A stretch of 64,000 bases of DNA from Paenibacillus sp. RC334. Lineage in GTDB: Bacteria; Bacillota; Bacilli; Paenibacillales; Paenibacillaceae. The stretch is taken from assembly GCF_030034735.1 (NCBI RefSeq), contig NZ_CP125370.1:1178001-1242000 (forward strand). The letters run 5' to 3'. The position numbers and the translations under genes are program-made. Shown in pieces: positions 39,008 to 44,576 of this stretch; positions within the stretch are counted from its first letter, which is position 1; the number at the start of each line of letters is the position of its first letter. A model generated the notes under the pieces. The model ran no database searches and was not told the origin of the DNA. It saw nothing but the letters and a program-made list of their open reading frames with translations.

Positions 39008-40384
39008 ATGAAGCTCGTACTTTTGTCTGGTGGTTCCGGTAAGAGATTATGGCCTTTGTCCAACGATTCCCGTTCCAAACAATTTTTGAAGGTGCTGGAG
39101 AGTCCGGAGGGTAATTCGGAATCTATGGTGCAGCGGGTGTGGAGACAACTGGGGGATAACGGCTTGTCCGAATCCTCGTTTATTGCAACAGGGAGAGCGC
39201 AGGTTGAAATGATTCAGAGTCAGGTTGGGCAGGATACGCGCATCATTGTTGAGCCGGAACGAAGAGATACTTTTCCCGCGATTGCGTTAACAGCCACTTA
39301 TCTATATTCCATCGTGGGTGTTTCGCCCGATGAAATCGTTGCTATATTGCCGGTAGATCCCTATGTAGAGGATGCTTTCTTTGCTACAGTTGCCCAGTTG
39401 GAACATACTCTTCAGGAGAGTGAAGGCAAGCTTGCGTTAATCGGGGTTGTCCCTTCCTATCCTTCTGAGAAATATGGTTACATTATACCTAAAAATGATG
39501 CCACACAAGGTAGCACAGGCTACCGCAAAGTGAGCCATTTTCAAGAGAAACCCGACCGGGAGCAGGCGGAGCGTCTGATGGAACGCAATGCTCTATGGAA
39601 CTGCGGGGTTTTTGCATTCAAATTGGGTTACTTGCTCGATATCTTGGCATCCAAAGGATTGCCGTTGAACTATGAAGAAATGCAAAAGCAATATTCTTCT
39701 CTGGAAAAAATCAGCTTTGACTATGAGGTAGTCGAGAAGGAGAAGGATATCGTTGTTCTTCCATATGATGGATTCTGGAAGGATTTAGGTACCTGGAACA
39801 CCTTAACGGAAGAAATGTCCCATCAGCAAGTGGGCAGAGGCGTAGTAACGGAGGATTGCGTCAATACGAGCCTTATCAACGAACTGGATATCCCCGTGGC
39901 GATCATCGGAACGAATGATCTGATCGTAGCTGCCAGCCCGGATGGCATCCTTGTGACCAATAAGGCGGAAAGTCCGCGCATCAAGGAAGTGCTCAAGGCT
40001 CATAATCAGCGTCCAATGTACGAAGAGCGCCGTTGGGGTCATTATCGGGTAGTGGATTATGTGAAGTATGACGAGGGCAACGAGGTATTGACCAAGCGAA
40101 TCCGTGTGCTGCAAGGCAAAAATATCAGCTACCAACTTCATTTCAAACGGAGTGAAATTTGGACCATTATTAGCGGTGAAGCGGAAATTATTTTGAATGA
40201 AAAGCTGCATAAGGTGAAGGCTGGTGATGTGGTTCGCATTCCAGAAGGGACGAAGCATAGCATTTTAGCCGTGACCGATGTGGAATTGATCGAGGTACAG
40301 ACAGGTTCTGAGTTGATCGAAGAGGATATTGTCCGTTTTTGCATGGACTGGGATGAAATTTCCCGTCACCAGTTTATTTCATAA
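39008..40384 (+). CDS. manC: Mannose-1-phosphate guanylyltransferase / mannose-6-phosphate isomerase-like
   Basis: AGAGAGGAAG precedes the ATG. The 458-residue protein has the pyrophosphorylase signature KLVLLSGGSGKRLWPLSND, IIVEPERRDTFPAIALTA, FQEKPDREQAERLM, NCGVFAFK, and a C-terminal cupin of the type-II isomerase kind (VLQGKNISYQLHFKRSEIWTIISGEAEIIL, IPEGTKHSI). In bifunctional enzymes the cupin His box reads HHHRxEHW; here it is LHFKRSEIW, so isomerase activity is uncertain. It makes GDP-mannose for mannosyl and, through Gmd and Fcl, fucosyl residues. Its own transcription probably starts in the repeat-rich gap. Confidence 0.93.
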   Translation: MKLVLLSGGSGKRLWPLSNDSRSKQFLKVLESPEGNSESMVQRVWRQLGDNGLSESSFIATGRAQVEMIQSQVGQDTRIIVEPERRDTFPAIALTATYLYSIVGVSPDEIVAILPVDPYVEDAFFATVAQLEHTLQESEGKLALIGVVPSYPSEKYGYIIPKNDATQGSTGYRKVSHFQEKPDREQAERLMERNALWNCGVFAFKLGYLLDILASKGLPLNYEEMQKQYSSLEKISFDYEVVEKEKDIVVLPYDGFWKDLGTWNTLTEEMSHQQVGRGVVTEDCVNTSLINELDIPVAIIGTNDLIVAASPDGILVTNKAESPRIKEVLKAHNQRPMYEERRWGHYRVVDYVKYDEGNEVLTKRIRVLQGKNISYQLHFKRSEIWTIISGEAEIILNEKLHKVKAGDVVRIPEGTKHSILAVTDVELIEVQTGSELIEEDIVRFCMDWDEISRHQFIS

Positions 40385-40442
40385 ATGAGCATCTTGCAAC
40401 CATCCTGGAAGATAAAAAAGGACTCATTTATGAAGTTTTTTA
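40381..40442 (+). terminator. Probable terminator after manC
   Basis: ATAAATGAG at the manC stop pairs with CTCATTTAT 33 bases later and is followed by GAAGTTTTTT. The loop is long, so it is a moderate candidate. Confidence 0.5.
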
Positions 40443-40531
40443 GCCCGAACTGTCGAAAATACGCGAAAATCTGTAAATTCATGAACATGACCTATTAAAT
40501 TTTGGTAAAAAAAAGTCGATACTTAGGGTAA

Positions 40532-40551
40532 GAAGGAATCCAAACTCCTTC
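40532..40551 (+). promoter_or_regulatory. Anti-P1 hairpin upstream of the riboswitch
   Basis: GAAGGA (40532-40537) pairs with TCCTTC (40546-40551). The same TCCTTC is the left arm of riboswitch stem P1, so the two pairings exclude each other. This gives a simple switch: hairpin formed, ribosome site free; P1 formed, ribosome site hidden. Confidence 0.55.
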
Positions 40552-40640
40552 CACGATAAACGCAGCCCTGTTGAAAGGCAGGTACGCAAAGCTAAAGGGC
40601 CTTCCGTGAGGATGGCAGCCTGGCTACCGAAAGGAAGAGC
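40545..40640 (+). promoter_or_regulatory. Cyclic di-GMP-I (GEMM-I) riboswitch before the GH26 mannanase
   Basis: The core matches the GEMM-I pattern: CACGATAAACGCAG, stem P2 capped by the GAAA tetraloop (CCTGTT-GAAA-GGCAGG), the hallmark ACGCAAAGCTA, stem P3 with its GTGA loop, and GATGGCAGCC...GGCTACCG closing the aptamer. P1 pairs CTCCTTCC (40545-40552) with GGAAGAG (40633-40639), and this right arm contains the Shine-Dalgarno sequence of the GTG start at 40645. Ligand binding should therefore lower translation of the mannanase. The class is known to bind c-di-GMP; the off direction is inferred from the pairing. Confidence 0.9.
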
Positions 40641-40644
40641 GAGA

Positions 40645-42237
40645 GTGAGCCCCTATTTTACCCCTGTGTATCGATTGATACGCAGTGTACTCCCCGTTGT
40701 TATGCTTTTTTCCTTGTTGCCCGCCGGTTTTGGTGAATCTCTGTCCGTGGCGAATGCTGCCACATTACAGCCTGTTAATTCGGACGCTTCTGCTGAGGCC
40801 CGTGAACTATACAACTATTTGATCAGCATCTCGGGAAAAAAGATGGTCACAGGTCAACATGATTATTTGGAAAGTCCGGATGAATTAAGCAACAAGGTCC
40901 AGAAAATCAGTAAGGCGTATGCTGGTGTACATGGCTACGAGATGGGAGCCATCTCCGGCCAGTCCGCCGCTACGGAGGCAGCACAACGTAAAAATGTCAT
41001 CGATAGCGCCATACGTTGGAGTAGAGCTGGCGGAATGGTTACGATGACTTATCATGAACCGCTGCCGGGTAAACCACTGACTTGGGCCAATGTGCAGGCG
41101 AAAGTAAGCCAGGCGGAGTTCAATAAATACGTGACGCCGGGTACTACGCAGTATAATCTTCTCATTGCCGATCTGGATAAGGTCGCTGTATCGTTAAAGC
41201 AGCTTCGTGATGCAGGCGTTCCAGTATTATGGAGACCTTACCACGAAATGAACGGCGACTGGTTCTGGTGGGGAAACAAAAACAATTTCAATCAGCTCTG
41301 GAATATCATGTATGACCGTTTTGTAAACACGCATCAACTAAACAATCTGCTGTGGGTATGGAGTCCGAACGCGCCTAATTCGTACACTGTTCCATATACC
41401 CCGAAATATCCGGGGGATGACAAAGTGGATATTTTGGCTGTAGACATTTACAACCATGATTTTAAGCAAAGCCATTACGAAGGACTGCTCGGACTGGCAC
41501 GGAATAAGCCGATTGCCATTGGGGAACACGGTGAGGTGCCCAGTCCCGAGGTGATGCAGGCTCAGCCAAAATGGGTGTATTCCATGACCTGGGGCAAGAT
41601 GCTGACCGAAAATAACACGACGGATCAGATTCAGGATTATATGAATGATTCGACAAGCTTGACGCGGGATGATGTGAAAAAAGGGTTAGCTGCGATGAAA
41701 GAACCTGAGACGGAGCTACCGACCGTACCGGACACGGGGCCAAACGATCCAACTCCGGCTCCGCCAGTGGTAAGTAAACCAGCCCCGCCTTCCGTTCCGG
41801 ATATGGTCTACGTGAACGGGCTGCGGGGTGAATATTTTAACAGCATGGATCTGGACGGCACCGCTGTTTTGGTTCGTACAGACAGTAAGCTGGATTATAA
41901 CTGGCGTGCGGCCTCGCCTGATCCCGAGGTGAAGGCTGATCAGTTCTCGGTCCGCTGGACGGGCAAAATCAAGCCGCAATATAGTGAGACCTATACGCTT
42001 ACCACGATATCCGATGATGGCATTCGTGTATGGGTAGACGGCAAGCTGGTTATTGATAGCTGGTTCAAACAAAGCTGGACAGAACGCAAGGACAGCATTA
42101 CCTTGCAAGCAGGCAAAATGGCAGATTTGAAAGTTGAATATTATGATGAAAAAGGCGACGCAATGGCACGTCTGATGTGGGAAAGTCAGCATGAAGCGAA
42201 AGCGGTAATTCCCGGCAACGCTTTGTTTCTTCCTTGA
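40645..42237 (+). CDS. pepM: Secreted GH26 beta-mannanase with PA14 domain
   Basis: The GTG at 40645 has GGAAG at 7 bases; the frame is open back to a GTG at 40606, but that lies in the riboswitch. The 530-residue protein has a signal peptide (about residues 1-37, ending VANAA), a GH26 TIM barrel (GQHDYLESP, MTYHEPLP, WRPYHEMNGDWFWWGN with acid/base Glu201, WVWSPN, IAIGEHGEVP with nucleophile Glu294), a Pro/Thr linker at about 360-390 and a C-terminal PA14 carbohydrate-binding domain (GLRGEYFN, VRWTGKI, SDDGIRVWVDGKLVIDSW). It should cut beta-mannosidic bonds outside the cell, perhaps in the mannose-containing EPS made here. Control by the riboswitch ties it to c-di-GMP. Confidence 0.93.
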   Translation: MSPYFTPVYRLIRSVLPVVMLFSLLPAGFGESLSVANAATLQPVNSDASAEARELYNYLISISGKKMVTGQHDYLESPDELSNKVQKISKAYAGVHGYEMGAISGQSAATEAAQRKNVIDSAIRWSRAGGMVTMTYHEPLPGKPLTWANVQAKVSQAEFNKYVTPGTTQYNLLIADLDKVAVSLKQLRDAGVPVLWRPYHEMNGDWFWWGNKNNFNQLWNIMYDRFVNTHQLNNLLWVWSPNAPNSYTVPYTPKYPGDDKVDILAVDIYNHDFKQSHYEGLLGLARNKPIAIGEHGEVPSPEVMQAQPKWVYSMTWGKMLTENNTTDQIQDYMNDSTSLTRDDVKKGLAAMKEPETELPTVPDTGPNDPTPAPPVVSKPAPPSVPDMVYVNGLRGEYFNSMDLDGTAVLVRTDSKLDYNWRAASPDPEVKADQFSVRWTGKIKPQYSETYTLTTISDDGIRVWVDGKLVIDSWFKQSWTERKDSITLQAGKMADLKVEYYDEKGDAMARLMWESQHEAKAVIPGNALFLP

Positions 42238-42286: not shown

Positions 42287-44576
42287 ATGATGAAAAAATG
42301 GTTGACCCAAAGGTATATAGTATTATTGGCCGGGCTGCTGGGGGTCGCAGCTATAGCGATGATCGCCTGGTTTATTCATACGCCTCCCAAGAGTGAAGAA
42401 CTTCAGACGATTAAAGTAGCGGCGGCCAGTCCGGTATGGAAACTCGGTCAGCGGGATGACTCTTCAGCAGAATTTAAAGGTATGGTCGGTAAGGACAATG
42501 TCAATATTTCGGCGGCCTCCACCGAGTCGTCTGCTAAAGGAGCATCGTCAGCGATGTCCATAGCAGAGAGTACAACGGCTCCGGTATTGCTCAGCAGTGG
42601 AGATATTCCTCCCGGTTTAAATGCGTCCATGAATCCTGAACTATCACTCCAGTACAAGCTGGATCAGGTTCCTCCCAACGGGATGATATTCCGTGTACGG
42701 ATTTTGGATGCGGGCAAAGCCGTTCCCCAAATGGCTGTATTTTCAAATCATCAGCTGTCCGGTATCATTCAGATTGCCGGGGTTTCCGGCACAGGCAGTG
42801 CATATAATTTCAAAAACAACTACGAGCTGTATATCCCCAAAGAGCAATTGCAAAGCGGTGTTAACGTACTCAAGCTAAAGACAGCGCGCTGCCTATACTG
42901 CTCCTCTGCTGAAGATAAAAATGTGTGGTGGACTTGGGATGACTTGAGCTTGGAGACGTTAGCTTCACCTGCGACTGAGCCGATACACGGTAAATATATA
43001 CTGACCGGAACGAATGTGAACAATAAAGAATTTTATTATGATCAGGGTGCAGTAAAACATTTACCATACGTTCTCAAATGGCTGGGAATTGCATATAGCG
43101 GCAATGTCATGAGAGTCACATGCGCTAGTAATGTGAACAAGGCATGCACAGACGTGGAAGAGTACTACCAAACGTTGAAGCAGTATAATATGCAATCGTC
43201 GGCTTTGTATTTATATACGGGCGATATCAAGCTGCAAAAAGACGGCTCCCTGCCGGAGACGGCCAAGCAGAAATTGCGCGATTATGTAAAAAAATATGGT
43301 TCATACCTGCAATATTATGAAGTGGATAATGAACCGGGATTGTTTAACCGCTCGAAAGCGGTCAATCTGGCCGTGGCCCAAGTGGCTGAATACGGAAGGT
43401 AAGCAATTGGCGCCACATCTCAAAACGGTAGCGCCGGGCTGGGCCTACTGGCCGACGTATTCGACCAAGGCTTGTAAAAACCAAACCGGAGGTACGCTGA
43501 AATGCGGCGATCCGGATGGATGGGAGCGGGACCCGGCACAACGTAAACAGCTGGAGGATGTCACCGACCTGACTAACGGGCACGCCTACGGCGAATCGTA
43601 TAATGAAGAGGGCGGGGGCAGCTTCGTTCAAAATCTGAAAACCTTCGGCGGTTCAAGCAATGGGCTGGAGAAGAAGATGCTGAATACGGAGTTTGGTACG
43701 AACGATACGCATCGGGACAACCCTGATTACGGGGCCAGTCAGCCACAAGCAGCAGCATTCGACCGGATTATGCGTTCGCAGATCGGTTTTGCCAATATGT
43801 TTATCCAGCATGCTGCTTTTTATAAGGACTACACGCTGTTTAAAACCGGCTTTGACCTGCAAAATCACAATCCGGCGAATACGGAAATTTATCCGTTCGG
43901 ACAAGGGCAGGACAGCCGTGTAAACATCATGAGACGCTTGAGTCTGGCTTATGCCACACACGGGAAACCATTGACTTATACGGTCCTGAATCCGGAGGAA
44001 ACGAAGGATAAGATGGTCTATGTCCGTACAGTGGATACGTCTAAGCTTAAACCGCTGGCTGGCAGTGGGGCCACCTCGGACAAATTGCTAGTGAACCTGG
44101 TGAATTTTGAATCCACAGCACAGACGATCCGTGTACGGGTGACGATGCCGAAAGCCGGTTTGTACACGGGTGAACGCTTCGGAGCTGGCTCTACGTACAG
44201 CCAGGCACAGCGTTCCATATCCGGACTCAAGGCTTCGCCTGCCCTTGATTTTGAAGAAAAGCTGGGTCCCGGAGAGTCGGTGCAATACATTCTGGAACTG
44301 AAAAGTACAGATCAGACCGCAGCTTCGGCTCCTACAGAGGTGAAGGCCGCCTCTGTTCAGGAAGGCGCGGTAAAGATCAATTGGCTTCAGGCAGAAGGCG
44401 TATCCGCCTATGATGTACTGCGTGCGGACGGGACAAACGGGGCGTATCAGGTGATTGCATCGGAAGTAGTGGGAAGCGCGTATACGGACCACACGGTGAA
44501 AGCCGGAAGTCACTACGCTTACAAAGTCCGAGCGACTGGGGGCACCCAAGTGTCCCCGGCGGCCGAGGTCGCTTAA
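42287..44576 (+). pseudogene. pepN: Membrane-anchored clan GH-A glycosidase with Fn3 domain, split by one frameshift
   Basis: Two overlapping frames (42287-43402 and from about 43395 to 44576) join to one protein of about 760 residues. It has an N-terminal membrane anchor (about residues 13-32), a Ser/Ala linker, a beta-sandwich (GMIFRVRILDAGKAVPQMAV), then a TIM barrel with YYEVDNEPGLF (acid/base-type Glu) and MLNTEFGTND (nucleophile-type Glu), a beta domain, and a C-terminal fibronectin III domain (APTEVKAASVQEGAVKINW). The break near 43393-43402 needs removal of one base to read on to LAPHLKTVAPGWAYW. The GH family within clan A is unsure (GH5/39-like). It may trim or release EPS at the cell surface. 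Confidence 0.75.

Follow-up and report, generated by a model that had tools for sequence, protein, structure and literature searches.

A c-di-GMP-I riboswitch aptamer (c-di-GMP, cyclic di-GMP) in Paenibacillus sp. RC334 stands directly before the gene for a family 26 glycoside hydrolase (GH26) within an exopolysaccharide (EPS) locus. The gene's Shine-Dalgarno (SD) sequence forms one strand of the aptamer's outer helix, P1, and a hairpin just upstream competes for the other strand. The arrangement lies in a 64,000-nucleotide stretch (the window, whose numbering is used throughout unless genome positions are named) of a genome assembled as one contig of 5.98 Mb. A preliminary description of this DNA had reported the aptamer, the P1 helix with its SD sequence and the rival hairpin before GH26, and these observations are confirmed. 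Its interpretation, a biofilm-signal switch for matrix dispersal, is partly supported as a whole. With a modest degree of confidence, we favour a two-input gate, motility AND NOT c-di-GMP, acting on a matrix-trimming GH26 enzyme.

In such a gate, a sigma-D-type promoter would start the mRNA at about 40526-40530, and the transcript would run from an anti-P1 hairpin through the c-di-GMP-I aptamer to an SD sequence that doubles as the 3′ strand of P1. As long as no ligand is bound, the other P1 strand would stay in the 5′ hairpin and the SD sequence could be freed. With ligand bound, P1 would close onto the SD sequence and translation would stop. The GH26 enzyme, probably together with the product of the next gene, would be made only with the motility programme on and c-di-GMP low, and would cut mannose-containing EPS from the surrounding locus. 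We infer c-di-GMP as the ligand, and likewise the use of the promoter and the start of the transcript.

Aptamer, competing hairpin and promoter

A search of both strands of the window gave a single Rfam match above cut-off, RF01051 (c-di-GMP-I, or GEMM-I) at 40551-40631 on the + strand, with 55.9 bits (gathering cut-off, 35 bits) and an E-value of 3.1e-8. This is the model search that the preliminary description had proposed for its GEMM-I assignment, and the landmarks that it named are all found: the GAAA-capped P2 at 40567-40582 (GAAA at 40573-40576), the ACGCAAAGC core at 40584-40592 and the GATGGCAGCC end. As in RF01051, P2 has a GNRA cap, P3 follows the ACGCAAAGC core, and a cytosine (C40627) occupies what we take to be the equivalent of C92. 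The elements of the leader and its gene are as follows.

40496-40521, + strand: sigma-D-like promoter, TAAA-N15-GTCGATA (TAAATTTTGGTAAAAAAAAGTCGATA); pattern match, upstream box kept in relatives
40532-40551, + strand: anti-P1 hairpin, GAAGGA (40532-40537) with UCCUUC (40546-40551) around an 8-nt loop; predicted by folding, with pair counts in relatives
40548-40552, + strand: 5′ strand of the P1 outer helix, CUUCC, pairing with 40633-40637
40551-40631, + strand: c-di-GMP-I (GEMM-I) aptamer; RF01051, 55.9 bits
40633-40637, + strand: SD sequence GGAAG, also the 3′ strand of the P1 outer helix; among 75 leaders analysed, 66 have GGAAG and 9 have GGGAG
40645-42237, + strand: GH26 glycoside hydrolase of secreted type with a C-terminal PA14 domain, GTG start, 530 aa; Pfam GH26 191 bits, PA14 96 bits

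P1 also has an inner CG:CG, the same layout (inner CG:CG plus outer pair) as in the RF03167 model, and the GTG start at 40645 lies 7 nt past the SD sequence. The SD sequence thus falls within P1 as the preliminary description had it, and the upstream hairpin is found exactly where it placed it, sharing the P1 arm and kept in relatives. Because the hairpin and P1 both need 40548-40551, they are mutually exclusive. The leader thereby has what marks a Vc2-type switch, a P1 that sequesters the ribosome-binding site and an exclusive alternative pairing; covariation of P1 is partial. Rival strands usually lie downstream of aptamers; here the competitor is upstream.

The arrangement recurs in related genomes. 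In the window's genus (g1), RF01051 was found in 35 of 75 genomes and GH26 orthologs (at least 60% identity) in 18, with the aptamer directly before the gene in 16 of the 18. Across 394 genomes of the family, 87 have a close GH26 match (E ≤1e-120): 18 in g1, 65 in a second, sister genus (g8) and 4 in a third (g3). Every g8 leader examined (62/62; 13/13, 20/20, 20/20 and 9/9) scores above a c-di-GMP-I-clan cut-off. In total, 78 of 84 orthologous leaders, from two of the three genera, carry the aptamer. This count leaves out G177, the first copy of G224, and G245. The sister genus often has a second GH26 copy after the first, and the best-matching copy was taken; L304 and L306-L308 are second copies, L305 is a second contig copy from a genome already counted, and L309-L310 are paralogs.

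The competing hairpin was compared across the leaders, where it comes right after a GGTAAG-type 5′ end in 75, with a loop of 3 to 8 nt. The hairpin count omits L262, at a contig end, and L268, in which no -10 box was found; L292, whose promoter and hairpin are replaced, was further left out when pairs were tallied. A MAFFT alignment of 62 leaders had misplaced the 3′ hairpin arm of one genus by two columns, and a script therefore tallied the pairs on folding-anchored arms. Standard pairs fill 99 of the 108 cells given by 18 distinct arm sets. In shuffles that dealt out the 3′ arms anew, the mean was 93.4 and 62 of 5000 reached 99 (relatedness ignored); folding-based anchoring favours the hairpin, and the shuffle control uses the same arms. 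Two-sided standard-pair changes occur at four of the six pairs: pair 3 is A-U or G-C, pairs 4 and 5 are G-C or A-U, and pair 6 is A-U, C-G or U-G. Judged by these comparisons, the anti-P1 hairpin is real.

P1 was compared through the leaders in which the SD sequence reads GGGAG. Three of the five tested pair better, by about 3 kcal/mol, with their own SD sequence than with the usual GGAAG: L260 (-7.3 vs -4.1/-2.5 kcal/mol), L261 (-5.9 vs -3.3/-3.0) and L050 (-7.3 vs -4.2). This suggests that the P1 arm and the SD sequence changed together in some lineages. Hairpin pairing and own-partner P1 pairing, taken together, make one arm appear held to two partners, as a switch requires.

The promoter was absent from the preliminary description. 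It ends 10 nt before the hairpin and has the TAAA and CGATA boxes and spacer of about 15 that we take to be the sigma-D (FliA) consensus; a search at 40300-40800 gave no sigma-70-type site. A sigma factor of the FliA family is encoded in the genome (256.9 bits vs a cut-off of 189.6). The strict motif TAAA-N14-16-[CG][CT]CGATA occurs before a flagellin gene and two chemoreceptor (MCP) genes, which is 3 of 26 flagellin and MCP upstream regions (6 of 26 with a looser motif); reversed motifs gave 0 and shuffles lead one to expect 0.036 (0.308). Among 52 distinct promoters from 82 leaders, 49 end in GTCGATA or GACGATA, and 31 have TAAA at a spacer of 14-17, against 11.5% in shuffles. Since CGATA served as the anchor for these promoters, the independent test is confined to the upstream box. 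In g3, GTCGATA precedes the gene in three of four genomes, with TAAT replacing TAAA and no aptamer. The 'complete, one-gene logic' of the preliminary description is too strong: GH26 is followed by another gene, and the predicted motility-type promoter apparently adds an input of its own.

Folding energies, ligand pocket and sign of control

Several results weigh against the proposed gate. In a fixed register, P1 shows no covariation (82 of 90 cells, which 5000 of 5000 shuffles reach), and the two remaining GGGAG leaders, L256 (-4.9 vs -4.2 kcal/mol) and L282 (-3.9 vs -4.4), have little or no own-partner advantage. The aptamer is absent before GH26 in G017 and G023 (no c-di-GMP-I match), and none of the four g3 GH26 leaders has a recognisable one. 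The promoter pattern is not enriched genome-wide, with 58 matches vs 72 for the reversed control. Folding calculations place the free, anti-P1 and P1 ensembles no more than about 4.4 kcal/mol apart, in an order that depends on RNA length. The SD sequence is predicted to be partly to mostly paired without ligand in longer RNA: its unpaired probability in the ligand-free window leader is 0.70-0.95 for RNAs ending at the SD sequence, falling to 0.09-0.59 and 0.01-0.37 for RNAs extended by 8 and 25 nt, respectively. In the pocket, C40561 stands at what is presumably the position of the ligand contact G20 of Vc2, where G or A is looked for, and the base of P2 reads GCAGCC/GGU vs a consensus of GCAAACC/GGG. 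In the text available of the respective studies, no P1 was detected in Cd1, a riboswitch of the same class (PMC9262584), and the glycoside hydrolase families seen in swarming P. polymyxa do not include GH26 (PMC6878767).

The leaders of G017 and G023 retain the promoter, the anti-P1 hairpin and GGAAG; the aptamer core is gone. A different core, with no Rfam match, is predicted there (L048 3079-3231 and L049 3079-3231), and the leader may be a decayed or converted aptamer.

Control is most likely translational, as no terminator-like site was listed at 40300-40800 by a scan that covers loops of 3-8 only. Since P1 covers the SD sequence, ligand should turn the gene off, although the folding energies alone leave that sign ambiguous. 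The opposite would hold if the P3 strand CUUCC paired with the SD sequence in the ligand-free RNA, so that ligand, by building P3, raised translation. The predicted ensembles lend this some weight. P3:SD is slightly best for 40526-40644 (anti-P1 with SD free -34.55, P1 -34.79, P3:SD -35.28 kcal/mol) and ahead of both others by >1.5 kcal/mol for 40526-40660 (-38.98, -37.12 and -40.66, in the same order); the values for 40526-40680 are -43.05, -46.72 and -44.71 kcal/mol. The P3 and P1 pairings are also about equal in most leaders of the P. polymyxa/terrae clade. However, P3:SD is weaker outside that clade. Over all 61 leaders its mean pairing energy is -4.8 kcal/mol vs -7.15 for P1, and P1 is ahead by >1 kcal/mol in 42, within 1 in 18 and behind in 1. 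The predicted P3-on-SD pairing is mainly a trait of the P. polymyxa/terrae clade, and a closed aptamer still leaves the SD sequence under P1. We consider an ON or trapped switch quite improbable and retain the OFF sign.

A long-range clamp between GGGUAAG (40526-40532) and UUUUACCC in the coding region was considered as well and left unused, its strength being uneven among leaders. The number of shuffles as good, of 2000, was 0 for L048, 12 for L050, 133 for L033 (the window type), 257 for L047, 1434 for L039 and 1730 for L041.

The pocket varies by lineage. Of 76 leaders, 15 have C at position 20 and 61 have G. All 15 C20 leaders belong to the P. polymyxa/terrae clade, the group in which the window falls, and have GC at J1/2 and U before ACGC, and the G20 leaders have the consensus AA and G in 60 cases and AC and A in one (L050). 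A pattern scan for C/U20 gave 105 matches in 103 stretches, 76 of them combining C20 with five or more of the six P2 pairs; judged by their titles, these 76 come from many phyla. The consensus AA/G at J1/2 and J2/3 accompanies C20 in 69 of these, and GC/U in 7, all GH26-type leaders. The position equivalent to G20 in Cd1 could be changed to A or C without large effect, according to the text available (PMC9262584). Because C20 recurs elsewhere and Cd1 tolerated C, the base is not disqualifying for the class, and the same two facts weaken the idea that C20 alone marks a new ligand class.

A changed ligand was kept under consideration because GC/U accompanies C20 only in the 7 GH26-type leaders; position 20 and the base of P2, the two places that changed, are both linked to which dinucleotide GEMM-I RNAs select. 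From its sequence, the pocket of the P. polymyxa/terrae clade is expected to have a retuned affinity. It is rather doubtful that this clade carries a 'CAC' GEMM variant with a preference for a different cyclic dinucleotide (e.g. 3′,3′-cGAMP) or a response to high c-di-GMP only. The sister genus has an ordinary c-di-GMP pocket on the same gene. Elsewhere in the RC334 genome, tandem c-di-GMP-I aptamers (L001 1376-1581; genome 354684-354888, - strand) precede a transglutaminase-domain gene, the first with G20 and the second with A20, so that three pocket types coexist.

The enzyme, its locus and its possible substrate

The preliminary description had placed a secreted GH26 mannanase directly after the aptamer. 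Family and position within the EPS locus stand; secretion is suggested by a signal peptide judged by eye from the N-terminus. The closest solved GH26 is 6q75 (GH26A; 239 bits), with RPYHEMN..WFWWG and GE..G common to both proteins, and we take the glutamates of the aligned HE and GE motifs to be the catalytic residues. With the family and both glutamate motifs, the sequence is that of a putative beta-mannanase. The PA14 part is nearest to the RsgI3 anti-sigma factor domain 6qe7. The features flanking the leader and the gene are listed below.

39008-40384, + strand: ManC (mannose-1-phosphate guanylyltransferase/isomerase), encoded directly upstream of the leader; Pfam NTP_transferase and MannoseP_isomer; adjoins GH26 in 14/14 g1 and 13/13 g8 loci
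40376-40441, + strand: A/T-rich long stem followed by TTTTTT, terminator-like, after manC; fold of 40370-40450, -18.3 kcal/mol
42287-44576, + strand: second gene after GH26, frameshifted near 43380; two overlapping open reading frames

On the 5′ side of GH26 lie glycosyltransferases, a UDP-glucose dehydrogenase and ManC, and on the 3′ side an XRE regulator, Wzz, an AAA/ParA-type protein, a priming transferase, a GDP-fucose synthase and a GDP-mannose dehydratase (GMD); several of these names are our presumptive assignments from sequence features. All 14 genus relatives fetched have the glycosyltransferases, the dehydrogenase and ManC on the 5′ side of GH26 and the next gene on its 3′ side. XRE is present in 13, the sequence of L234 ending before it, and 10 of the 14 have the Wzz-to-GMD part; L231-L233 have no Wzz match in the fetched 0.3-3.6 kb past XRE. 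In the sister genus, where only ManC was looked for, it precedes GH26 in 13 of 13 loci, or 27 of 27 over both genera. With the aptamer counts of 16/18 and 62/62, this comparison backs the placement before GH26 in the EPS locus. The stem after manC is not clearly kept in the relatives folded there, nor is it listed by the terminator scan (loops of 3-8 only).

The second gene likely shares a transcript with GH26. Its pieces align in a single frame in 14/14 relatives, one of which, read through, is open over 762 aa with only weak CBM-like and Fn3-like matches. The frame change near 43380 may be a real inactivation or an assembly error.

A matrix substrate is consistent with work on swarming. As far as the available text of one proteomic study of P. 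polymyxa goes (PMC6878767), mannose is a component of the EPS, several glycoside hydrolases were up and one EPS-synthesis protein down in swarming cells, and EPS self-digestion by glycoside hydrolases was proposed; c-di-GMP is not mentioned there. The same switch could nonetheless serve motile rhizosphere cells that digest plant mannan or glucomannan as food, the EPS neighbourhood being historical. Foraging would suit a motility promoter, several related GH26 structures in the PDB go by the name of mannanase, and the hydrolases raised in swarming P. polymyxa include plant-polymer enzymes (PMC6878767, in part). This remains unlikely in our view, if the least so of the alternatives, given the ManC linkage in 27/27 loci of two genera and the proposed repression by a biofilm signal, which matrix turnover would explain better.

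The enzyme could instead serve EPS synthesis, through chain release or clearing in export, with the switch balancing synthesis and not dispersal. The gene sits between ManC and chain-length genes, and EPS clusters elsewhere have their own hydrolases. A synthesis partner's need is nevertheless opposed by a motility-type promoter and by aptamer silencing under biofilm conditions, and such a role appears rather improbable. Matrix trimming under the two-input gate is the reading that we carry forward. The genome holds 9 GGDEF and 2 EAL domains.

Other GH26 copies were seen. A second GH26 at genome positions 3574027-3575006 (+), 51-62% identical, looks broken: different matches show it as two pieces, and a stop is counted in one of them; similar single matches without a counted stop occur in other genomes of the genus. 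Second copies after the first in the sister genus (L306, L307, L308 and L311-L330) have leaders with a conserved stem (GGCCCTGC..GCAGGGC; outer CTTAGT/ACTAAG or CTTACT/AGTAAG) followed by CTAT. The stem core is present in 23/23 second-copy leaders tested, and L304, outside that test, seems to be without it. Four such leaders were scanned and gave no Rfam match above cut-off; the stem is possibly an mRNA-processing or attenuation element.

Significance and comparison with known systems

Neither the aptamer class nor the OFF mechanism nor GH26 is new. No description of this module was found in the openly available literature, subscription papers falling mostly outside the search. In the portions available, an antisense c-di-GMP-I riboswitch on an XRE gene has been proposed in another Paenibacillus (PMC9943018), four further papers contain nothing on this GH26 gene (PMC11007031, PMC11330790, PMC10766802 and PMC6274999), and the role of c-di-GMP in Gram-positive bacteria was called elusive in 2025 (PMC12029170). 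In two genera, a single conserved locus appears to tie a secreted-type enzyme encoded next to matrix genes to both motility and c-di-GMP. If the gate is true, this enzyme is probably made only when cells leave biofilm building and start moving. Natural variants provide controls: leaders in which the aptamer is absent (g3), its core remodelled (G017, G023) or its pocket changed (P. polymyxa/terrae clade). The module may also matter for the production of Paenibacillus EPS, as the enzyme could cut the product.

Vc2 of Vibrio cholerae, of the same aptamer class, is a translational OFF switch in which P1 is the helix that switches, and the P1 of pilM forms only with ligand, in the text available (PMC9262584). 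The present leader has a rival 5′ hairpin at the predicted transcript start, an SD sequence that is itself a P1 strand and a glycoside hydrolase of secreted type as target. Cd1, before the flagellar genes of C. difficile, resembles the proposed gate in that c-di-GMP turns off a motility-phase gene set. It works by transcription termination, whereas no terminator-like site is listed here at 40300-40800 (short loops only). RF03167 (c-di-GMP-I-GGC) has a like P1 layout and is the best-scoring model for 57 of 62 g8 leaders, and the window copy scores best in RF01051. RF03167 has G (ACGCGAAG) where these leaders have A (ACGCAAAG), so the RF03167 label holds by score only. The enzyme resembles GH26 beta-mannanases (e.g. 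6q75 GH26A, 3zm8 and 2whk) in its family and, by alignment with 6q75, in its two glutamate motifs; unlike them, it has an RsgI3-like (6qe7) PA14 domain and sits in an EPS cluster.

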